From: a virus | Length of the DNA stretch: 27,029 bases | Virus record (IMG/VR): IMGVR_UViG_3300042691_019008 | Location: 1-27,029 of that record | Strand: one strand, 5' to 3' | In this document: piece by piece, positions 2-21,680 of the stretch | Layout: every line of letters begins with the position of its first letter | Position numbering within the stretch: position 1 is the stretch's first letter | The notes under the pieces: generated by a model | Told to the model about the DNA's origin: nothing | What the model saw: only the letters and a program-made list of their open reading frames with translations | Databases searched by the model: none | Position numbers and translations under genes: made by a program

Positions 2-3000
2 AGTTTAGAATCAAATTCTATTTTGTTTCTACAAAAATTGCAAAAATATTTAAATTCAGAAGGTGGTCTTGATGGGGACAATTATGGTGATTTATTGTTG
101 CAAATATCAAATGGGGTTTCAGAAAACTACCAAAGGTATTTAGATGGATATTACAACACAAATTACATAAATAATTTGGTATCTTATCCAAGTCAGATAT
201 ATAACATTGACACCTATACAAAACTAAGTGATAAATTTAGCAACCCAATTATGAATGACTTTGATGTTAATAAAATAGTAGATAAAATTAGACAAGCACC
301 AATAACTAACAATATTAATTGGGTGTATCCATATTCTGATCCAAACTGGGTAGAATCAAATTTAGGTATCAAGGATAATATATTAGATATATACAACACA
401 AAAGATACAATATTGTTTAATACAAGCAGGAATGTTATTACAAACTTTAGAGAGGTAAATGATATAATAAATAATAGGCCATTTAAATATTTTCCAGATG
501 ATAGGACTAGAAAAATAACATATGGCGAAATATATCAAGATAATTATTTGGCTAAAAAGAGCATTTCTTTGTTAAACACCCCAATCTTTATCAATGCTAT
601 TAGTTCTGGTATAGAGAAATGGAGAGTAAATAATAAGACCCCATTTGTGACAGCATCTTATATTTTTTTAAATTCATTACCATTAGCTAATCTAAATGAT
701 TTTTTTATTGACAAAAATACAAATAAAAAAAATGGATTTGTTTTTTCATCTTTTGTTAAATATTCTGCAATACATAAGTTACCTTATGCTTGGATATTAA
801 AATATGGTTCAATATGGCATAGATATAAGACTTATGTGAATAGCAATGTGGATATTCTTGATGAGGTTTGGAAAGATTTTGATTATAAACAAAATTATAA
901 TGCAAATCCAGATTTTGTTTACAACGTGAATATGGATATAAAAATTAAATTAAAGGATGATAAAAAAATAAACACAGGGTTTTATCCAAAATTAATAAAT
1001 GATTACAATGTTTTTGTTAATGGTTTTGATTTGTTTAAGGATTACACCAATGAAGAAATTAGTAATGCGGAAAATAGGGGGGTTAAAATTATAAATACAT
1101 TAAATTATAGTAATAAAAGTGGTTATACTTTTGACAATTGGGGTGTTCTTGTACCACAAAACATATACGATAGTATTTTCTTTTCAGATTATTGCGAAGA
1201 TAATCAATTTGATTTAACAGCCAAATATTATACTTTCCCATCATTTAATTCATTTAATCAAGAAACAGAAACAAGTTCATATTCAGAGGACGAATTATTA
1301 AAAGTAGCACATAATGGGTCAATTAGATTAATATATGGGGATGATGTTAATACTTTTGATTTTAATGATTTAAAAAAACCAAGTTATAATGAATATTTTA
1401 ATGTGCAAAAAGACACAGATAACGCATTCACCTTGGGGGATACAAACACAACATATTCAAGTATTGAAGATATATTTGCGGTTTTTGATTATGAAACATT
1501 AAATTTATTTGAGAAAGAGTTTTTAGATTTTAGCAAATCAATATACGATATTGATATTGTTGATGATGCTGCCCAAATAAGTTTATTGGGTTTAGATTAT
1601 CAAGATGAGAATACACAATTTAGAAATTTCCAATTATTGTTTAGACAGTTGATGGAAGTGCCACCTAATTCAACTAAATTAGATTTATATGAATTTTTAA
1701 CTCAATCAGAAATTTATCAATCAAATAATATAAGAAGAGTTTTATCGAACTTTTTAAATTATGATGTATTGTTTAAATATGGCAATCCAACGCAATATAA
1801 TCACATAACTTACAATTCATTACTTAACCATATTAGTAATAAGTCATCTATATCTAATCCAGTAAGATTCAATCCTTATGTTAGGAACACATTGCCAAAT
1901 GAGGTATCTTTATTGGTATCAGAGGCTGCAAATCCAGCAGCCTGGAAAGCACTTAAATTATATGTTGGGTTTTCAACAATAAATGGATTGAAATATGCAG
2001 ACACCAACTCAGGTATAACTGATTTCTTTATTGAGAATGGTATTGAATTCAATGAGGCTAATGTTATTAGATTTGCACATTTAATTAAAATATACGCAAC
2101 ACAGAAATATAAAAACCCCCAACTAACATCAAATGGGTTTTATGGTATTTTAAAAACAAATCAAGATACGTTAAATTCTTTATTATCCAACACTTTGACA
2201 AATACTTTGGATAAAGTTAAAGCGGATATTAGTAATGTTAGTATAGCCCAAGTAAATGTAATTGATACTGCTGTTGATAGTAAATTATCAAAATATGATT
2301 TGTATGAAACATTTAAAGCAATAAATGACAAATGGATTTCGGGTTCTGATTTTAGGAGTAGAACTTTATTTGAGGATGTTTTATTCTTGGATAGGGGTTC
2401 AAGAAACATTGGTGATTTATATTATGCAGATATATTTGATTTGAAGAAGATTTTTAATGATAGGAATATCAATCTTAATATGCCAGCATTTAATTTCATA
2501 GGTGGTTTATTAACAAAGAACAATTTCAATATTTTTCCAATGCCATCTTATGTTAATTTTTATGGCGCGTTATCACCTGGGGATTCAATAAATGATGTTG
2601 TGCAAAGTGCAACAGAAGTTGCTAATGATACTTGGGGTTTATTTACTAATGTTGATTATAGAAAATCTGGACCAAAATTGGTTTGTGTTTATTCTGGAAG
2701 GGATTCTACAACATTAAAAGGTAATAGGGATTTTAGGTTTCATGATGATTCTTTTGATTGGGATAGGTCGCAAGAAATACCTTTTTTGGAGGATCAAACA
2801 AATAAGAGTGATTGGTCGCAATCAAATAAATGTGTTAGTTTTCTTGTTGATGTTGGCGCACAAAATCAAGCAATTTTTTATGGTGTTGATGTTGACCAAA
2901 ATAATGGTACGGCAACAGCGGAATCAATCCAAATGATTGAAAATATAAGAAATTCAGTTTCAAATAGGGGGGTAGCCACACAGAATAATTCAATGTTCAA

Positions 3001-4495
3001 TTTGTATAAGAATTTAAGTTATACTGCGACAATAAGAAGTATGGGTAATGCGCTTATTCAACCAACTATGTATTTTAAATTACAACATTTACCAATGTTT
3101 GAAGGTCCATATTTTATTACAGAAGTTAGTCATGAAATAAATCCAGGTTCGTTCGAAACAATGTTTAAAGGGGTTAGGCAAAGTATTTATTCACCCCCAA
3201 CAATAGATACATACTTATCTAGTATAAATGAAAACTTACTTACCAAGATACAAAGTCAATTTTCAAAAACAATACAGAGTGATAAGATTGGTCAAGATAC
3301 CGCAACAAATAATAACCAAGCGTCAAAAACAGTTCCAACAAATAGTAGTGCTTGTGGTAGTTTACTATACACTTCATACGCACAATTCTCACAAAATAAT
3401 GAGGTTAAGATTGAAACAATCTCATCACAAGAGATGTATAAAGCGATAACAGAAAAAGTTCCAAATGTAAATTATGCTAATTTGATATACAAAATATCAT
3501 ATTTGGCATCTTTTGATGGGAAGAATTTCAAGGCAAACCATTTCAATTTTGGTAATGTTTGGTTGACCTATAATAGGGGTACAATAACAAATTATAATCA
3601 AAATATAGAACAGTTTTTCTGTGCTAAAAATTTGGTTACAGATAGTGAAACTCCGTTCGTAATATTCCCATCATTAATTACGTATATTGATTATATGGCT
3701 AGGGTTATTGAAAGAGTTTATGGTAAGCTGGATCAATGGAACGTTGCAAATCAAAATGATTCAAAACTAGACCCTACTGTTAATGCTTATGTTATTGATT
3801 GGCTATATGGTGAGGATTCGATGCAACAAGTTTTGGCATCTAATACTTATGCTAAATTAAATTCAAATGGTTATTATGATAAATTAAAGTTAAAATTAAA
3901 AGATGCTACAAATAGTATAAAAGCAATAAATCCAAAAGCATTTGAAGTGGAGGTTGAAAATGTGGTAAAAACAAATAATTCAATTAGTGGTACTAAAAAA
4001 ATAAACACCATTGAGGAAGGTTGCGTGTTTACATATAAAGCCCCAAGTGTCAAAACAAATATGCCAATAGGTGAGATAAAAGTTCCATATAATATTGTAA
4101 TTCAATATAGTGCCAAAAAAATTGAAGAACTATTTTATACTGAAAATGTGGTAAAAGAAATTGATAATGCTTTAATTAAGTTATACGCTTCAAATATTAG
4201 TCCAGAAATTGTTAATTTTGATATTGTTGTTAAATCAGGGGCAACTGGATATGATATAACGTTTAAAGCGGACATAATACCTTCAATTGATGTGCCATAT
4301 ACAAGTGTAAGTATATTAGGGTTTAAAAACTCAAGTAAAAAAACAATTGAAGAATTAGATAAAAAAATAAAATCTTCTCAAAATTACAACCCAAACGACA
4401 AAATAATTAGCAAAGAAAAAGATATTCCAGAGTATAGTATAGCTTTTTATTATGCTAACTACACAAAATTAAATTTATATCCTAAACTTGAATAG
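2..4495 (+). CDS. Giant virion protein, baseplate-hub-like, 5'-partial
   Basis: The frame is open from base 2 with no stop, so the gene starts upstream; a TTG at 23 is only an internal codon. At least 1,497 codons are present. Most of the protein is Asn/Asp/Tyr/Ile-rich without a family I recognise. At about residues 995-1060 (counted from the TTG) lies a segment with MGNALIQPTMYFKL, then GPYFITEVSH and a GxFxTxFxGVR pattern. This resembles the C-terminal part of phage hub proteins (gp27/late-control-D type), where similar wording ends the barrel domain. Further on (about 1110-1240) a region with ANHFNFGNVW and FPSLITYIDYMARVIERVYG loosely recalls glucosaminidase/lysozyme-like wall hydrolases. 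Both assignments are by eye. Its place beside other tail genes supports a baseplate or tail-tip role. I am confident it is a virion protein, less so of the exact module functions. Confidence 0.6.
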   Translation, partial: SLESNSILFLQKLQKYLNSEGGLDGDNYGDLLLQISNGVSENYQRYLDGYYNTNYINNLVSYPSQIYNIDTYTKLSDKFSNPIMNDFDVNKIVDKIRQAPITNNINWVYPYSDPNWVESNLGIKDNILDIYNTKDTILFNTSRNVITNFREVNDIINNRPFKYFPDDRTRKITYGEIYQDNYLAKKSISLLNTPIFINAISSGIEKWRVNNKTPFVTASYIFLNSLPLANLNDFFIDKNTNKKNGFVFSSFVKYSAIHKLPYAWILKYGSIWHRYKTYVNSNVDILDEVWKDFDYKQNYNANPDFVYNVNMDIKIKLKDDKKINTGFYPKLINDYNVFVNGFDLFKDYTNEEISNAENRGVKIINTLNYSNKSGYTFDNWGVLVPQNIYDSIFFSDYCEDNQFDLTAKYYTFPSFNSFNQETETSSYSEDELLKVAHNGSIRLIYGDDVNTFDFNDLKKPSYNEYFNVQKDTDNAFTLGDTNTTYSSIEDIFAVFDYETLNLFEKEFLDFSKSIYDIDIVDDAAQISLLGLDYQDENTQFRNFQLLFRQLMEVPPNSTKLDLYEFLTQSEIYQSNNIRRVLSNFLNYDVLFKYGNPTQYNHITYNSLLNHISNKSSISNPVRFNPYVRNTLPNEVSLLVSEAANPAAWKALKLYVGFSTINGLKYADTNSGITDFFIENGIEFNEANVIRFAHLIKIYATQKYKNPQLTSNGFYGILKTNQDTLNSLLSNTLTNTLDKVKADISNVSIAQVNVIDTAVDSKLSKYDLYETFKAINDKWISGSDFRSRTLFEDVLFLDRGSRNIGDLYYADIFDLKKIFNDRNINLNMPAFNFIGGLLTKNNFNIFPMPSYVNFYGALSPGDSINDVVQSATEVANDTWGLFTNVDYRKSGPKLVCVYSGRDSTTLKGNRDFRFHDDSFDWDRSQEIPFLEDQTNKSDWSQSNKCVSFLVDVGAQNQAIFYGVDVDQNNGTATAESIQMIENIRNSVSNRGVATQNNSMFNLYKNLSYTATIRSMGNALIQPTMYFKLQHLPMFEGPYFITEVSHEINPGSFETMFKGVRQSIYSPPTIDTYLSSINENLLTKIQSQFSKTIQSDKIGQDTATNNNQASKTVPTNSSACGSLLYTSYAQFSQNNEVKIETISSQEMYKAITEKVPNVNYANLIYKISYLASFDGKNFKANHFNFGNVWLTYNRGTITNYNQNIEQFFCAKNLVTDSETPFVIFPSLITYIDYMARVIERVYGKLDQWNVANQNDSKLDPTVNAYVIDWLYGEDSMQQVLASNTYAKLNSNGYYDKLKLKLKDATNSIKAINPKAFEVEVENVVKTNNSISGTKKINTIEEGCVFTYKAPSVKTNMPIGEIKVPYNIVIQYSAKKIEELFYTENVVKEIDNALIKLYASNISPEIVNFDIVVKSGATGYDITFKADIIPSIDVPYTSVSILGFKNSSKKTIEELDKKIKSSQNYNPNDKIISKEKDIPEYSIAFYYANYTKLNLYPKLE

Positions 4496-10428: not shown

Positions 10429-11409
10429 ATGAAAAAGAATATTTTTGAAAAGAGGGTAAATATTTTACCTTATGAATACCCCTCCTTATTGTCGTATAAG
10501 GATGCGATTAGACACTCATACTGGATACACTCTGAATTCAATTTCACAACTGATATTGATGATTATAAGACAAAGATATCAAATGAGGAGAGGGAAGTGA
10601 TTAAAAGGTCAATGTTGGCTATTGCTCAAATTGAGGTAAATGTTAAGACATTCTGGGCTGATCTTTATAAAAGAATGCCTATAACTGAAATTGGTGATGT
10701 TGGTATGACATTTGCCGAGAGCGAGGTAAGACATAAGGATGCTTATGCTCAATTATTAAGAATTCTTGGATTGGAGGATGAGTTCCAGACCGTTATTGAA
10801 ATCCCTGCCATAAAAAATAGAATTAATTATCTAACAAAGTATTTGGATGGGACAAGGAGCAAAGAGAATAAAATGTACACGAAATCTGTATTATTATTTT
10901 CATTGTTTATTGAACATGTGAGTTTGTTTAGTCAATTCTTGATTATGATGTCCTTTAATAAGGAGAAAAATCTATTCAAAGGTATTTCAAATGTGGTTGA
11001 GGCCACCTCAAAGGAGGAGGAGATTCATGGTAATTTTGGATCAGAACTTATCAACATTATTAAGGAAGAAAATCCAGAATGGTTTGATGAAGAATTTGAA
11101 GCATTAGTTGTATCAGCCTGTAATAAAGCATATGCTGCTGAATGTGGAATACTAGATTGGATATTTGAGAATGGTGAATTAAGTTTCCTATCAAAAGATA
11201 CAATTAAACATTTCATTCAAAATAGATTTAACAATTCGTTGAATAGAATTGGAATGAAGCCAGTATTTGAGGTTGATTTTACAGAGATTGAGAAAACATT
11301 ATGGTTTGATGTGGAGATTTTATCAACAAAGGAGGGAGATTTCTTTTATAAGAAGCAGATAGATTATAATAAAAAGAGCAAGAGCATAACAGAGGATGAC
11401 TTATTTTAA
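10429..11409 (+). CDS. nrdB: Ribonucleotide reductase class I small subunit
   Basis: A 326-aa R2 subunit, which holds the di-metal/tyrosyl radical cofactor that starts ribonucleotide reduction in the R1 partner. Ligands can be aligned with E. coli NrdB by motif: Glu69 (in QIEVNVKTFW, in the place of Asp84), Glu99 and His102 (ESEVRH), Glu162 (FIEHVS), Glu197 and His200 (EEEIH). Tyr106 (KDAY) matches the radical Tyr122. Glu instead of Asp at the first ligand occurs in several bacterial R2 lineages, including, as I recall, Bacteroidetes. The C-terminus EDDLF is the likely R1-docking tail. There is no N-terminal ATP-cone. It is 12 nt upstream of nrdA and surely cotranscribed. The order is B then A. 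Confidence 0.93.
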   Translation: MKKNIFEKRVNILPYEYPSLLSYKDAIRHSYWIHSEFNFTTDIDDYKTKISNEEREVIKRSMLAIAQIEVNVKTFWADLYKRMPITEIGDVGMTFAESEVRHKDAYAQLLRILGLEDEFQTVIEIPAIKNRINYLTKYLDGTRSKENKMYTKSVLLFSLFIEHVSLFSQFLIMMSFNKEKNLFKGISNVVEATSKEEEIHGNFGSELINIIKEENPEWFDEEFEALVVSACNKAYAAECGILDWIFENGELSFLSKDTIKHFIQNRFNNSLNRIGMKPVFEVDFTEIEKTLWFDVEILSTKEGDFFYKKQIDYNKKSKSITEDDLF

Positions 11410-11421
11410 AAAACAAATAAA

Positions 11422-14172
11422 ATGAATAAAGAAAAATATTATTGGCTAAATGATGAGAGTAGGCTTTTCTTATCAAGGGGGTATATAAATGAAACTCCCG
11501 AACAAAGGATTAAAGATATTGCAAATAAAGCAGAGCAATATTTAAAAATTGATGGGTTTGCTAATAAGTTTGAGGATTATATGGCAAGAGGCTTTTACAG
11601 CCTATCAACACCTGTATGGATTAATTTTGGTAAGGAGAAAGGATTACCTATTAGTTGTTATGGATCAAACATTGATGACACATTAGATAGCATTTTGAAT
11701 GCTGGAAGAGAGATTGGAATGATGTCAAAATATGGTGGTGGAACAAGTGCATATTTAGGTAATATTAGAGCCAGGGGTAGTAAGATATCAACAGGTGGAA
11801 CAGCAGATGGTCCAGTTCATTATGCAAGGGTATATGATACAGTTGTTGATGTTTGTAAGCAATCAGAGGCAAGAAGAGGCGCGTGTGCGGTTTGGTTGCC
11901 AGTGGAACATGATGATATTATGGAGTTCCTGGATATTGGAACAGAAGGCAATCCAATCCAAAATTTGCAATATGGAATTACAGTTACAGATAATTGGATT
12001 AACGATATGAAGGGGGGAGACCCAACCAAGAGGAAGGTATGGGCAAAAATAATTCAAAGACGTAATGAGTTTGGGTTTCCATATATCATGTTCAAGGATA
12101 ATTCAAATAACAACACACCCTACAAAGAATTGGGTATGGAGATAACCGCTTCAAATCTTTGTTTAACAGAAGACCAAAGAGTTGTCACATCAAAAGGTTA
12201 TTTGACTGTTAAAGAGTTATATGAGAGTGGGGAGGAATTAGTTTTATTTAGTGGAAATGAAGCGGTTAAATCATCTCCTATGTTATTAAGAAATGAAGAT
12301 GCTGAAATATTGAAAATAACATATTCAAATGGAATGACACAAAAGGTGACATTCAATCATGGGATACCAGTTTTTAATGATACAACAAAAGATATTGTAA
12401 GAGTTGAAGCAAAAGATTTAAAAATTGGTGACTACGTTGCTTTGCAAACAAAAAAAGGTTTGTTTGGTAATTCGGATATGCAAGATGAGGCTTATTTGTT
12501 GGGATTATATCAATCAGATGGTACGCAAACCAAGGATGAGTTAATGATTGATGTTTGGGAGAATGATTTTGATTTAGTTGATGACATTCAAGAAAAGTTT
12601 AATAGAATACATTATAAGTATGGTTGTGATAGATATAGTATTGTAAATCAAACAGGTCAAATAGTTGGGATGAGAAGTAGAAACCCTGCAACATTTCATG
12701 ATTGTAAAGTAAGTCAATCTCTTGTCAAAAAGAAACGCTTAACGTCAAGAACTTTGAAAAAAGCATTAAATTTTGAGAAAGGTTATGTTCCATCTTGGAT
12801 TTGGGAATCAAATGAAGATACAATATGGGCATACTTAAAAGGGTTGTTATATGCAGATGGTGCAGCATTTAAGGGTACAGCAAATGGTGAGCCATTACAA
12901 ATAGCATATGCTGATATTAATAAAGATTTTTTGAAAGAGTTACAAATTTTATTTACAAATTTAGGATTAAGTTGTTCAATTGCCTTGTTGAGAAAAGAGG
13001 GTTCACATTTAATGCCTGATGGTAAAGGTGGGCATAACTATTATACTTCAAAAGATTGTTGGAGATTAATATTTGGTAGTAAAAATGATGCCTTAATTAT
13101 TGAAAATAAAACACAATTCTTGTCAAGAAAAAATATAATTATTGAGGAAAGAGAATATAGAGATAATACCAAAAAAAGGGCAAAGGTTGTTGCAATTGAG
13201 CAATTAGAAAATGAGCCAGTATATTGTCCAACAGTTGATAATGATGAACATATCTTTGTATCAAATGGGTTGAGAACATTTAACTGTTCAGAAATTCAAT
13301 TACCAACAGATTCATTAAATTCTTTTGTTTGTTGTTTGGGGTCATTGAATTTAGTTCATTGGGATGAGATTAAAGACAGTGATGCTATTGAGGTTTATGT
13401 TATGTTTTTGAATGCAGTTATGGATGAGTTCATTCTTAAATCTGGAAAGATGGCAGGGATGAAGAGAGCAAATAGATTTGCATCACAACATAGGGCAATT
13501 GGATTGGGTGTTATGGGTTATCATTCTTTATTCCAATCAAAATTAGTTCCATTTGAATCTTTGATGGCAAAACAATTGAATAATCAGATTTTCAAAATAC
13601 TTAAAGAAAAGTCAGACGCAACATCAAGATATTTGTTTGAAGAAAAAGGTTATAAATCATTGAGAGAGGGTTATGCAAACACCACCTTAATAGCAATAGC
13701 CCCAACTAAATCAAGTTCATTTATTCATGGCCAAGTTAGTATGGGTATTGAACCAATAAAATCAAATTATTTTATTAAGGATTTGGCAAAGTCAAAAACA
13801 ATTTATAAGAATCCTTATTTGGAAGGTGAGTTGCAAAAATATGGATTGAATACGCCAGAAGTATGGGAGAGTATTTTGAAGAAGGATGGATCAGTTCAAC
13901 ACTTAGATTTCCCAACTAAGGAGGTTTTCAAATCATTCATTGAAATATCACCAAAAGAACTTATATTACAAGCAGCACAGAGGCAAAAATATATTGACCA
14001 ATCACAATCACTTAACTTGATGATACACCCCTCAGTTCCAGCAAAAGATATAAATCAATTATATTTGTATGCGCATGAGGAGGGGGTTAAAACCCTATAT
14101 TATCAGTTTAGTCAAAGTTCAGCACAATCATTTGCAAGGAATATAAATGAATGTGTTAGTTGCGAGGCGTAG
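11422..14172 (+). CDS. nrdA: Ribonucleotide reductase class I large subunit with intein
   Basis: 916 codons encoding R1 interrupted by an intein; the spliced product would be 541 aa. R1 reduces NDPs to dNDPs. Motifs relative to E. coli NrdA: Cys79 (LPISCYGSNIDDTLDSI) matches redox Cys225, Cys622 matches the thiyl-radical Cys439 (SNL/CSEIQLPT), Glu624 matches Glu441, Cys637 matches Cys462, and the tyrosine pair in GVKTLYYQ matches Tyr730/731. The C-terminus NECVSCEA carries the CxxC redox shuttle. Only 78 residues precede the first redox Cys, against 224 in E. coli, so the N-terminal ATP-cone is absent. Without splicing the radical Cys context would be destroyed, so activity depends on intein removal. 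A bidirectional terminator follows the stop. Confidence 0.93.
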   Translation: MNKEKYYWLNDESRLFLSRGYINETPEQRIKDIANKAEQYLKIDGFANKFEDYMARGFYSLSTPVWINFGKEKGLPISCYGSNIDDTLDSILNAGREIGMMSKYGGGTSAYLGNIRARGSKISTGGTADGPVHYARVYDTVVDVCKQSEARRGACAVWLPVEHDDIMEFLDIGTEGNPIQNLQYGITVTDNWINDMKGGDPTKRKVWAKIIQRRNEFGFPYIMFKDNSNNNTPYKELGMEITASNLCLTEDQRVVTSKGYLTVKELYESGEELVLFSGNEAVKSSPMLLRNEDAEILKITYSNGMTQKVTFNHGIPVFNDTTKDIVRVEAKDLKIGDYVALQTKKGLFGNSDMQDEAYLLGLYQSDGTQTKDELMIDVWENDFDLVDDIQEKFNRIHYKYGCDRYSIVNQTGQIVGMRSRNPATFHDCKVSQSLVKKKRLTSRTLKKALNFEKGYVPSWIWESNEDTIWAYLKGLLYADGAAFKGTANGEPLQIAYADINKDFLKELQILFTNLGLSCSIALLRKEGSHLMPDGKGGHNYYTSKDCWRLIFGSKNDALIIENKTQFLSRKNIIIEEREYRDNTKKRAKVVAIEQLENEPVYCPTVDNDEHIFVSNGLRTFNCSEIQLPTDSLNSFVCCLGSLNLVHWDEIKDSDAIEVYVMFLNAVMDEFILKSGKMAGMKRANRFASQHRAIGLGVMGYHSLFQSKLVPFESLMAKQLNNQIFKILKEKSDATSRYLFEEKGYKSLREGYANTTLIAIAPTKSSSFIHGQVSMGIEPIKSNYFIKDLAKSKTIYKNPYLEGELQKYGLNTPEVWESILKKDGSVQHLDFPTKEVFKSFIEISPKELILQAAQRQKYIDQSQSLNLMIHPSVPAKDINQLYLYAHEEGVKTLYYQFSQSSAQSFARNINECVSCEA
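12160..13284 (+). mobile_element. Intein with LAGLIDADG homing endonuclease in nrdA
   Basis: Residues 247-621 of the nrdA product (375 aa). The intein starts with Cys1 (block A, CLTEDQRVVTSKGYLTV). Block B has the conserved Thr64 and His67 in VTFNHGIPV. Two dodecapeptide motifs of a LAGLIDADG endonuclease follow: YLLGLYQSDG (112-121) and YLKGLLYADG (225-234), each ending in the acidic residue needed for cutting. Block F is VYCPTVDNDEHIFVSNG (354-370). Block G ends TFN before extein Cys622. The penultimate residue is Phe374 instead of the usual His. All splice nucleophiles and both acidic endonuclease residues are present, so it looks active. It probably spreads by homing into intein-free nrdA alleles of related phages. 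Confidence 0.93.
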
Positions 14173-16961: not shown

Positions 16962-19900
16962 ATGGACAATTCTTTTAGAATAAAGACAGAAATAGGTAAA
17001 GACAAGGTAATAAACTTTGATTTAAAACAAGATTTTGAATTTTTAGAAATATTATCTTTTAAAGTTAGGCAATCAGATGTTTTCTCATTAAATTGTTCTG
17101 ACTACGGTGTTGTTACAGGTAGGGTGACAGCAAACACAGGGTTTGGATTACCAAATGCAAAGGTTTCAATTTTCATACCAATAAGTGATGAAGATGCCAA
17201 CAATGAGGTTATAAATGCAATATATCCATATAAAAATGTGAAAGACACAAATGAAGATGGATATAGGTATAATTTATTACCTTATGAAGAATCTTATTTT
17301 GGGCATGTCCCAACGGGCACTTTTCCTTCATTAAACGATGTATTGTTTAATACGGTGGCCATTGAAGTTTTTGACAAGTATTACAAATATACAGTCAAAA
17401 CAAATTCAAGTGGCGATTATATGATATTTGGTGTGCCTCTTGGAGGTCAAGTTGTCTTTATGGATCTTGACTTATCTGATATGGGTGAGTTCTCATTAAC
17501 GCCAGAGGATATTATAAGAATGGGTTTAGCCACAAGAGACCAATTGAAAGATGGTAAGTTTAAGGCATCTACTGACTTGCAGATATTACCACAAATTGTT
17601 TCATTAACAAAACCAGTTGACATTTCTCCATTGTGGGGTGATGAAGAAACTTGTAGCCCTGCTATAAATAGGGTTGATTTTGATTTAAGGGATGATGCAA
17701 ACATAGATATACAACCAACGGCTGTATTCATTGGATCCATAATATCAACAACAGATAAGTTAGCAACCAAAATAAATTGCAATATCCCAAACAAACAAGG
17801 TGAATTATGCAATTTGATTGCAAACACCGGACAAATTCTAGCAATTAGGCAGGCTTTGGAATTGGATAAGTTTGATAAACCTATCTTGGAGCAATATGAA
17901 ATAGAAGGTGGGGGGTATGTGATTGATGATAATGGCGCTTGGATTGTGGATATACCTATGAATTTGGATTATGTTATCACAGATGAAAATGGGGAGCAAG
18001 TCATAACAAATGATAAGACAAGGGGAATCCCTACTAAGGGGAAATATAGATTTAAGGTTAAGTGGGAGCAGTCAGATGAATTAAATAAGTCAACAAAAAG
18101 GGCAACATATTTATTGCCTAATATTAAGGAGTATGGGTGGAGGAATTTGAATCCAACAGAAGACCCAATTAATAACACAAGTAGCCCAACTATTATTGAA
18201 GAACTTAGGAGTTCATATTATTTTGGCCTTGATTGGGATGGCTATGCAAATCAAGATGATGCAATTAAATGTGAAGATACGTTCTACGAATTCAATTATA
18301 ATAGAGTTTATACTGTAAGTAATTTAATAAGCAACTATCCAATAAAAGGTATATCTGATGATATATGTGATGCTAGGGTTAATAAATTTCCAACAAATGA
18401 TGGTATTAAACATCCAACATTTCTTGGGTTTATTATAAATTATTTTAATTTTTTCATATCACTTATAACCACATCTATTTTATTACCATTGGTAGTTGTT
18501 ATTCATATATTTTCAGCTGTGGTAAATTTGATATTAGATATTTTTACTATTATTAGTAAGATATTAAAAGCTATATTAGAATTTTTTGGTTTTGATGTTA
18601 ATAAAGTTTTGGGTGTAACAAGGTTTAAAATAAAGACAATAAAACTACCAATATTATCATATCCATCATGTACATCGTGCGAATGTGATTCAGTTACTAT
18701 TCTTGATGAACCAGATTCTTTATTGGATAGTGGGTTTTTGACACCAGTTAGTAATCCTAATAATTATTATAGAAAATATTTGGATTCATTATTGTTGGTT
18801 GATGGGGGTTTAAATAAGTTTTTTAATCAGTATGGTTTTAATATATTTGGCACAATATATAATCCACAAACAGGTGATGGAAAAGAAGATAGGCAATATT
18901 TTGCACAAGCAGTTAGTCAAGCATTTGGTGGCAAGCTAACAATATTTGATAATATAAATGATTATAAAGAAACCATATCAGAGGAGTTTGAGTTTGTAAA
19001 CTCTAATAAGTTCTTCACTTACCAATTAACTTTAAATATACCTGAAAGAATTAACTTATTTAATACTAGGGGGCAATATTTCTCTTATGCAAATAGAATA
19101 AGGGTTACATTTGCAAACAATGAAAATCTTGGAAAATATCATTATGATAATACTTTAACTGTGTTAACTCCAAAATTCTATACAAGTGGAACATTATTAA
19201 GTTTTATTGATCCAAAAACAACTTTTGATGATAAAAATACAGAAGTCTTAAATGGTAAGAAAGGCATTGCTGGAACAACAGTTGGTGGAAGTAATTTCAA
19301 TATTACACTAAATTATGTAGATTCAGATAAATCAGATAAGTCTATAATTTACACAATACCAAAGTCAGATGATTTGGTTACAAACTATGTATATCCAATG
19401 GATATTGAATACTACCAAATAATTACAGCTATAACATACACAGAGTTTATAAAAATGTCCAATCCAAGTAGTTTTGCTAGGTCATTCCCAACAATATTAA
19501 ACGGTTTGGGTGATACAAGATATAGTAGAAGTAATAATTCAAATATTGAAGCAAACACAAACAAGAAAACTTTGGATTATTATGAGAATATTGATGAACA
19601 ATATGTTGTGATTATGCAAAGAGGGGTGGATCCATATTCCCCCCTATTTACAAACGAGTATAGTCTTGGTAGAATATTTGGGTTTCAAGATGAATTGGCC
19701 ATAAAGGTAGAGACACAAACTAGATTAAATATTCCAATACAAAAAATAACCAATGGACAAACAATACAAAACCACAATAACCAGAGTGAAATATTTTATC
19801 CATCTTATTTTTTTACGCCAGGAAGTGAATTTAAGTCAGTAACCTTCCAAAATGGAGGTTATTATTCTGGATTTGATATTAGCTACATAAATAATAATAT

Positions 19901-21680
19901 AGCTTCAAATCCTATATTAAGTGAGTTAAATGTGAGTACAAGCATAACCCCAAAATCTAGTGATAATATATTTGTTCAAAATGGTTCTTATTTGACATTT
20001 GATGATTTGGCTGGGGGTAGTTTCTTCTTTAATAACAAATCAAATAATGATGTTACAAAGAAAATGGATTATGTTTCACCATCTCTATATGGCAGTTTCC
20101 ATGTTGCGCCTTATGTTAGATTAACAGATAAGTTTAAAAATGTAATGAGGACTGATAGACTTCCTTCGTCAGACCAGTTGGATAGGCCTGATGATAATTG
20201 GAATTTTAATGTCCCTTTATTACAACAAAACTTAATTTTTGGGGCTTATATATTCTCACTTTCAAGTGGGGGTGACGTGGTTGTTGATTCTGTTGGAACG
20301 GATGATTCATTTGGGGACATTGACTTGTCTGGGCTTACCAATAGTGATTTAATATCTAGTTTTAATGAATGTTCAAAGATGGTTGATTTTGATTGTTATA
20401 AAGGCGAGGGGGATGATTTTGGTATAGATGATAAATGTGTTGATAAAGGTAGTGTTGATAATGGGTGTTATGTTCTATTAAGAAGAAAAATTCTTGATAT
20501 TGGTGTTGATATATCAAATATATTAGAATGGAATCTTAGAAATTCTGTAACAAGGTCTCTATGCGCTGGTATAATATCTGAATCTTTCTTGAATAACTGG
20601 ATTAATGGTGTATTATATGCACCAGCTTTAAAGACAAATTTTAAAATAGGTAAAAGAAATAGTGTTATTGAAGCAAGGTATTGTAAAGCAACTGCATATT
20701 TTGATAACAAAACAAATAATTTATATTATAGATCAGCACCTTATTATAACGGTTCTTTTATTTCATTTGCGCCTTATGGTGTAGTTGGAAGGCCAACAAC
20801 CATTATGGATTTAGGTAAAAAAACATTTAGATATATTAAACATATAACAGACATACAAGATTTTAGATACATAATGAATAAAATGTCAAATACTTCGTAT
20901 CAAGAAAATGATTCGCTAGTTAATTTTTATGTTGTGTCAAGATTAATTAGTTCAACTTTCTTAAATAGTTTGATTGGTTCAAATGTGATTGATAAGTTTT
21001 TTACAAGAGAGTATGGTAATTTGAAAATGGTTGATGGAGATTTGGCTCAATTATTTAGTATAAACTCACAATTAGGGGTTTTAGAGTTTACGGCAGAAAA
21101 CTATGATGAAATAAACCCAAAGCCTATTCAAATTTTTAAGGTGGACAAAGGTATAGGTACAAAGAATGTTATTGGTGTATTTTTTTCTTCCTCAACAGAG
21201 GATTTGCAAATTAGGGATTATTTAACACCAAGTAGAATAAATGTTAGAAATGATAATGATTTGTTGCAAAGAAAAATTCCTATACCTATTAAATCACAGA
21301 AAGTGCCAATGTATATATGGGGGAGAAAAGGTAAAGATGCTAATAAATATATTTTTGGTACTGATGAAAACCAGTGGGTAGATGATAATACAAAATTAAA
21401 AGTTACAAGTAGGCGTTACCAGGAATTAGATAGGCTTGAAAAAATTAATGCTGAAAATAATTATTTTGTTAATTCAAAAACACTAGCAGGTAATTTAGCT
21501 GATGATATTTATAGTCGTGGCTATATATATGCTGTAGATTCTCAAAATAATAACGAAATAACCTTATTTGATAGTTTTTCTAGTACGAAGTTTTTAGTTG
21601 GTTCACCTTATTATTTTTATTTTGGGTTAATAAAAGGGGGTTCGGCTATGAATTTATTTAAAAATAGGTATCCATCATGA
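16962..21680 (+). CDS. Giant baseplate-locus protein with hydrophobic segment, 1572 aa
   Basis: No family recognised with certainty; it holds the place of T4 gene 7 (wedge). Visible parts: an N-terminal region (about 45-175) with GVVTGRVTANTGFGLPNAKVSIF and later TNSSGDYMIFGVPLG, the pattern of a prealbumin/carboxypeptidase-regulatory-like beta sandwich; a very hydrophobic stretch at 487-543 long enough for two or more membrane helices; immediately after it Cys570, Cys573, Cys575 (CTSCEC); a second cysteine group at 1137, 1145, 1159, 1169; and long Asn/Tyr/Ser-rich beta-type regions. No signal peptide. The stop overlaps the next ATG as ATGA, so translation is coupled. A virion role is very likely from context; the membrane-like segment is unusual for a wedge protein. 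Confidence 0.75.
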   Translation: MDNSFRIKTEIGKDKVINFDLKQDFEFLEILSFKVRQSDVFSLNCSDYGVVTGRVTANTGFGLPNAKVSIFIPISDEDANNEVINAIYPYKNVKDTNEDGYRYNLLPYEESYFGHVPTGTFPSLNDVLFNTVAIEVFDKYYKYTVKTNSSGDYMIFGVPLGGQVVFMDLDLSDMGEFSLTPEDIIRMGLATRDQLKDGKFKASTDLQILPQIVSLTKPVDISPLWGDEETCSPAINRVDFDLRDDANIDIQPTAVFIGSIISTTDKLATKINCNIPNKQGELCNLIANTGQILAIRQALELDKFDKPILEQYEIEGGGYVIDDNGAWIVDIPMNLDYVITDENGEQVITNDKTRGIPTKGKYRFKVKWEQSDELNKSTKRATYLLPNIKEYGWRNLNPTEDPINNTSSPTIIEELRSSYYFGLDWDGYANQDDAIKCEDTFYEFNYNRVYTVSNLISNYPIKGISDDICDARVNKFPTNDGIKHPTFLGFIINYFNFFISLITTSILLPLVVVIHIFSAVVNLILDIFTIISKILKAILEFFGFDVNKVLGVTRFKIKTIKLPILSYPSCTSCECDSVTILDEPDSLLDSGFLTPVSNPNNYYRKYLDSLLLVDGGLNKFFNQYGFNIFGTIYNPQTGDGKEDRQYFAQAVSQAFGGKLTIFDNINDYKETISEEFEFVNSNKFFTYQLTLNIPERINLFNTRGQYFSYANRIRVTFANNENLGKYHYDNTLTVLTPKFYTSGTLLSFIDPKTTFDDKNTEVLNGKKGIAGTTVGGSNFNITLNYVDSDKSDKSIIYTIPKSDDLVTNYVYPMDIEYYQIITAITYTEFIKMSNPSSFARSFPTILNGLGDTRYSRSNNSNIEANTNKKTLDYYENIDEQYVVIMQRGVDPYSPLFTNEYSLGRIFGFQDELAIKVETQTRLNIPIQKITNGQTIQNHNNQSEIFYPSYFFTPGSEFKSVTFQNGGYYSGFDISYINNNIASNPILSELNVSTSITPKSSDNIFVQNGSYLTFDDLAGGSFFFNNKSNNDVTKKMDYVSPSLYGSFHVAPYVRLTDKFKNVMRTDRLPSSDQLDRPDDNWNFNVPLLQQNLIFGAYIFSLSSGGDVVVDSVGTDDSFGDIDLSGLTNSDLISSFNECSKMVDFDCYKGEGDDFGIDDKCVDKGSVDNGCYVLLRRKILDIGVDISNILEWNLRNSVTRSLCAGIISESFLNNWINGVLYAPALKTNFKIGKRNSVIEARYCKATAYFDNKTNNLYYRSAPYYNGSFISFAPYGVVGRPTTIMDLGKKTFRYIKHITDIQDFRYIMNKMSNTSYQENDSLVNFYVVSRLISSTFLNSLIGSNVIDKFFTREYGNLKMVDGDLAQLFSINSQLGVLEFTAENYDEINPKPIQIFKVDKGIGTKNVIGVFFSSSTEDLQIRDYLTPSRINVRNDNDLLQRKIPIPIKSQKVPMYIWGRKGKDANKYIFGTDENQWVDDNTKLKVTSRRYQELDRLEKINAENNYFVNSKTLAGNLADDIYSRGYIYAVDSQNNNEITLFDSFSSTKFLVGSPYYFYFGLIKGGSAMNLFKNRYPS

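Follow-up and report, generated by a model that had tools for sequence, protein, structure and literature searches.

A putatively mobile LAGLIDADG intein before the radical cysteine of a T4-like phage ribonucleotide reductase and a candidate cutting footprint at intein-free sites

An intein in the bnrdE gene of Bacillus phage SPbeta (NC_001884) was reported by Lazarevic et al. 1998 (as cited in PMC3653736). It interrupts the large subunit of ribonucleotide reductase (RNR) at the point SNL/C (a slash marks an insertion point throughout), and inteins at SNL/C are also found in a Staphylococcus SPbeta-like phage, Vibrio phage ICP1, a Silviavirus and Salicola phage SCTP-2. The Aquifex aeolicus NrdB (AaR2) intein, which was shown to splice, is likewise of the LAGLIDADG type and interrupts an RNR active site; unlike the intein described here, whose splicing is predicted from its residues, it lies in the small subunit, between the metal ligands Glu228 and His231 (PMC8772380). 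Conserved sites have been argued to shield inteins, since hosts cannot easily evolve immunity there (Swithers 2009, PMC2814812). The present intein and its insertion site are of an already-known type, and the element is a further member at a known RNR site. It is very probably mobile, a LAGLIDADG element in the large subunit of the class I RNR of a T4-like phage, at a site that cycles between states; that this site bears a footprint of cutting is less certain.

The window, i.e., the whole stretch of DNA analysed, was a virus record of 27,029 bases. Its gene content was T4-like, with genes for gp32-like, UvsX-like, 5'-3' exonuclease, DnaB-like helicase, NrdB, NrdA and baseplate wedge proteins. 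Megablast comparison of 14 kb of the window with named phages gave no match. Two very large ORFs (23–4495 and 16962–21680; 1490 and 1572 aa) had no PHROGs match at E 0.001. The nrdB gene, encoding the partner small subunit (10429–11409), was located directly upstream of nrdA; these and all following features of the window are on the + strand. The NrdA precursor consisted of 916 aa in a single frame (11422–14172) without internal stop. It scored 659.8 bits against the NCBIfam model NrdE-prime (TIGR02510), above the cut-off of 602.25, and was assigned to this family. The match came in two stretches, the second beginning at residue 622, and alignments to the nearest solved structures (PDB 6dqx and 6dqw) broke at 247/622, with the same Cys on either side. 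The large-subunit family suggests a class Id RNR, in which NrdB would hold a dimanganese radical cofactor.

The intein was inserted between Leu246 and Cys622 of the precursor. The N-extein (residues 1–246; 11422–12159), delimited by the profile and PDB alignments and by intein-free relatives, ended in EITASNL; the C-extein of 295 aa with its stop codon (13285–14172) was delimited by the profile match and intein-free relatives. Intein-free alleles, 97–98% identical to the spliced protein, read ITASNL/CSEIQL with nothing added or missing. Because relatives this close lack the insert exactly, the intein boundaries are no guess. Alignment to E. coli K-12 NrdA placed C439, the thiyl-radical cysteine, at Cys247 of the spliced protein, which is Cys622 of the precursor and the +1 extein residue (13285–13287). 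In the same alignment N437, E441, C225, C462 and Y730/731 corresponded to N245, E249, C79, C262 and Y518/519; the C-terminal cysteines of the class I RNR alpha subunit were also present, and all class I alpha residues were aligned. AlphaFold modelling of an intein-free NrdA (contig L025) gave a pLDDT of 43, the input alignment being shallow and too uniform; because this model was poor, the placement in the active site rests on sequence alignment. The preliminary description had put an intein directly before the radical cysteine of RNR and had equated Cys622 with E. coli Cys439. The first statement agrees with the Pfam domains, the profile and PDB breaks at 247/622 and the precise empty alleles, and the second with the column assigned by the K-12 alignment. 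Comparison with other RNR inteins showed that the insertion site was known, in SPbeta bnrdE and ICP1 nrdA.

The intein consisted of 375 aa (Cys1–Asn375, precursor residues 247–621; 12160–13284), with boundaries exact from intein-free relatives. Pfam Intein_splicing matched precursor residues 262–617 with 37.8 bits (cut-off 35.8), and LAGLIDADG_3 matched residues 469–532. The N-terminal splicing region covered intein residues 1–104 (12160–12471; the 104/105 boundary is approximate) and the homing endonuclease region residues 105–338 (12472–13173). Two LAGLIDADG motifs were read from the translation, YLLGLYQSDG (112–121; 12493–12522) and YLKGLLYADG (225–234; 12832–12861), with the acidic residues D120 and D233; both were intact, and the full pair named in the preliminary description was thus present. 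The AlphaFold model of the intein had a mean pLDDT of 77.7, and Foldseek matched it to the TliVMA intein (7qss, E 4e-15), PI-SceI, PI-PfuI and I-DmoI, in keeping with a two-motif LAGLIDADG fold. The C-terminal splicing region (339–375; 13174–13284) had the pattern VYC...H364...TFN, in which H364 is the block F histidine.

The features of a class 1 intein were found: Cys1 (invariant in 26 family members), the block B TxxH motif (T64 and H67; H67 invariant and T64 in at least 90% of the 26-member alignment), and the C-terminal Asn375 followed by Cys622 at +1. The usual penultimate His was absent; this residue was Phe374, and other family members had H, S or G. Since inteins that lack this His can splice (Chen et al. 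2000, cited in PMC8772380), it is no defining requirement of class 1. Phe in place of His could slow Asn cyclisation. Cys356 in block F (F:4; 13225–13227) and Thr373 (G:5; 13276–13278) were also invariant in the 26-member alignment, despite the presence of Cys1 and the lack of the class 3 Trp.

The SPbeta bnrdE intein is a distant same-type relative of the window intein (about 27% aa identity over the whole length). The two share the SNL/C point, the RNR large subunit, a similar length, Cys1, the terminal Asn and LAGLIDADG; the SPbeta intein differs in its class Ib NrdE host, its penultimate Gly and an Asp, not Cys, in block F. The NrdA inteins of ICP1 and of the Staphylococcus and Salicola phages also lie at SNL/C before the radical cysteine, but they form a separate lineage, starting with CVAP and ending in GILTGQ, with Gln, not Asn, before the +1 Cys. 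The identity of the ICP1 and Staphylococcus inteins to the window intein was 24–25% where aligned. The NrdA intein of the uncultured huge phage LR756511.1 belongs to the same family (45.5% aa identity) and occupies the same site, but is more diverged and has a penultimate Ser; this nrdA has an additional intein at S/C225.

According to the conserved residues, the precursor would be translated whole and Cys1 would begin an N-S acyl shift. Cys622 would accept the N-extein by transesterification, Asn375 would cyclise, and an S-N shift would free the thiol of Cys622, which would then serve as the catalytic radical cysteine. The pattern of sequence evolution indicates that the endonuclease would cut SNL/C of co-infecting intein-free phages and that repair would copy the intein in. 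The site would cycle in the population between an empty state, a full intein, and a mini-intein with a dead endonuclease.

The window intein and that of contig L011 shared 94.5% nt identity with a dS of 0.19, whereas both exteins shared about 70% with saturated dS. The intein therefore moved without the gene, and movement between phages is shown by this comparison of sequences. A clean co-conversion tract around the L011 intein was sought and was absent; on the upstream side, no more than 60 nt from the insertion, identity was already down to 50%. The same intein family was also found at the same point in the eukaryote-type NrdA of related phages, with 31% aa identity between exteins and about 60% between inteins. 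In pairs of full inteins, dN/dS was 0.12 for the N-splicing region, 0.15 for the endonuclease and 0.07 for the C-splicing region; the endonuclease is therefore under purifying selection. From this selection and an intein dS far below the extein dS, we infer that the window intein cuts and still homes, as had been suggested from its motif pair.

Close-clade contigs were counted with a DNA pattern that lies upstream of the site and takes no account of the intein. The 60 contigs, which are not independent samples, comprised 43 with an empty site, 11 with a full intein, 5 with a mini-intein and 1 in which the contig ended within the intein. On the host-gene tree the states were interleaved, with 10 state changes (mean of 13.4 for shuffled labels). 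The preliminary description had held that imprecise loss would destroy nucleotide reduction and that the element is thereby locked in place. That such loss is lethal follows a logic already established (Swithers 2009, PMC2814812). The lock-in fails at the population level, because most close relatives have a precise empty site and the empty, full and mini states are interleaved on the tree; lethal imprecise loss does not imply it, because recombination with an intein-free phage is still possible.

The mini-inteins (L019, L020, L022, L023 and L024) had 239 aa; their first LAGLIDADG domain was gone, and the second had lost its acidic residue. LAGLIDADG_3 no longer matched the mini-intein remnant. 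Their splicing ends were 88–99% nt identical to those of close full inteins (window, L001, L002 and L011). The mini-inteins were mosaic, the middle remnant between the near-identical ends being only 54–63% identical to that of the close full inteins, which suggests that dead and live inteins have recombined repeatedly. The clade is of value because its closely related members include an empty site, a seemingly active intein and a dead mini-intein, all at a single insertion point exact to the codon.

An intein that splices and has lost homing, its patchiness being due to vertical descent together with the host gene and to gene exchange from time to time, appears improbable. Dead-endonuclease mini-inteins do occur in the same clade, and the evidence for mobility comes from sequences; however, the low intein dS beside saturated extein dS with L011, the two intact LAGLIDADG motifs, the purifying selection on the endonuclease and the silent-change footprint at empty sites described below all argue against lost homing. 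The invariant F:4 Cys and G:5 Thr, two of the three WCT residues, would fit a class 3 intein with Cys356 of block F as the first nucleophile. This is very improbable, as Cys1 is invariant; the class was rejected on position B:12, which is Ile69 (in HGIPV), not Trp. Defective splicing in a decaying nrdA is hardly credible. The penultimate Phe is non-canonical, and degenerate nrdA genes with inteins were reported in Campylobacter phages (PMC3653736), but the window gene had no frameshift or stop and kept all catalytic residues, dN between the window and its close-clade relatives was low in both exteins (0.005–0.06), and TFN was conserved across full and mini-inteins and two NrdA subclasses.

Synonymous change was scanned in 38 unique close-clade genes, all relatives being metagenomic contigs. 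The top window of the 541 codons was at codon 245 (p < 0.001 for all alleles, 0.002 for empty alleles alone; tree-aware permutation). Rebuilding the trees without each tested block (block-jackknife) removes an upward bias near the sites, and the peak at codon 245 stayed. It spanned codons 243–248, about 18 bp, with a 5' half in extein codons 243–246 (A-S-N-L; 12148–12159) and a 3' half in codons 247–248 (C-S; 13285–13290); codons 241 and 249–251 were almost invariant (0–2 changes). The second peak was at codon 76, at the other intein site, S78/C79 (11653–11658), and alone had p = 0.31 in the full data set. This site, immediately N-terminal to Cys79, the counterpart of the reducing cysteine Cys225 of E. 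coli, was empty in the window and held a second, unrelated intein in L022, L023, L051/L254, L081 and L103. In full-intein alleles the peak at codon 245 was absent, and codon 76, where their site is empty, was the top window (p = 0.023).

Switching between TCN and AGY codons in the 38 genes was confined to three of the 41 invariant serines, S78, S244 and S248, the serines that lie no more than three codons from S78/C79 or L246/C247. The tree required 5, 9 and 4 such changes, respectively, and none at the other 38 invariant serines; owing to contig recombination, these tree-based counts overstate independent events. A random draw of three of the 41 serines would give exactly these once in 10,660, a figure that ignores non-independence. 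At six places in the tree, by inspection, a full allele with TCN at both serines of the radical-cysteine site stood beside nearest empty alleles with AGY at one. Exceptions were four empty alleles with TCN at both serines (L026, L027, L048 and L448) and two full inteins beside an AGT serine codon (L011 and L117); the latter mean that AGT is no outright block to insertion or that the codon changed afterwards. Mid-distance clades had no more than a slight excess at the radical-cysteine site, which ranked 10 of 541, and no clear peak appeared in eukaryote-type NrdA. Several serines switched in a mixed, more diverged set of NrdB. In close-clade genes, 1 of 17 serines switched in NrdB, 1 of 12 in the DnaB-like helicase and 0 of 5 in gp25. 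Serine switching elsewhere is thus rare but present.

We lean towards reading the silent hypervariability as the footprint of endonuclease cutting, made up of variants that escape as targets, of scars from short repair conversions, or of both. The chances are about even that intein-free phages evade the endonuclease target, or undergo repeated breakage and patching there, by codon switching (notably serine TCN to AGY) at both NrdA sites with no active-site residue changed. Three processes could be involved: selection for poorly cut targets, repair scars without insertion, and co-conversion at past insertions. The first two are favoured because the peak is narrow and the variation is absent in full alleles. 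If co-conversion alone were indirectly responsible, insertions and losses would have dragged flanking codons from other lineages, there would be no selection for escape, and the remaining empty alleles would be uncut. Such an origin is rather unlikely. It fits the nearly single flank haplotype of full alleles across many backgrounds (TCA-AAT and TTA or CTT before the insertion point, TGY-TCW after it), and phage recombination is frequent, nrdA itself being mosaic (L001 N-extein dS 0.32 and C-extein dS 0.93). However, the variation is in empty alleles, not in full ones, a peak of about 18 bp is too narrow for tracts imported from outside the clade, and the other intein site has a peak of its own.

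The proposed cutting footprint has parallels in other systems. In the Torulaspora WHO elements and their target FBA1, target alleles likewise vary both in sequence and in how sensitive they are to an intein-related endonuclease, and gene-conversion repair of breaks creates resistant alleles; the yeast experiments demonstrated allele-specific resistance and conversion repair, with tracts of only 5–14 bp to one side (PMC7282813). The WHO elements are in yeast and lie outside the host protein, and their resistance is experimental, whereas for phage nrdA we infer it. The haloarchaeal mcm inteins also occupy several sites in one essential gene, and some empty alleles resist; there the resistant alleles have an amino acid change (proline at +1), whereas the phage NrdA protein is unchanged (PMC10643990). 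If the reading of the footprint is true, it would imply an arms race at the level of codons, located at sites deemed hard to escape since the protein sequence is fixed. Silent change at both insertion points suggests that the host may escape by codon choice, or that scars of cutting are visible.

Further inteins were observed in related nrdA genes. In L138 (1435–2526, + strand), and also in L115, L141, L144, L153, L156 and L157, an intein of eukaryote-type phage NrdA was located at WINQ/C...SCLVHN/GGKRRGS. Its +1 residue was glycine, with no Cys/Ser/Thr extein acceptor, and the empty allele L118 read WINQGGRRRGS. The reading frame of this intein was open and its HINT/LAGLIDADG match conserved; comparison with named phages gave no close match. 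The nrdA of L138 (571–6870) carried three inteins, at Q/GG, at SNL/C and, as a split intein with a separate 412-aa ORF between its halves, at PTAS/T. Both active-site cysteines were preceded by inteins in L022 and L023. In L066 (6739–8166), L067, L070 and L073 (IMG/VR), nrdA was fractured at SNL/C, the N-half with one part of a split intein being followed by the C-intein and C-half; the intervening ORF was in another frame and had an HNH-like motif (labelled by eye). L125 (8822–9382 and upstream) had two inteins in one gene, namely a mini-intein of 187 aa at the radical-cysteine site and another intein at KQG/C...GN/STRRGS.
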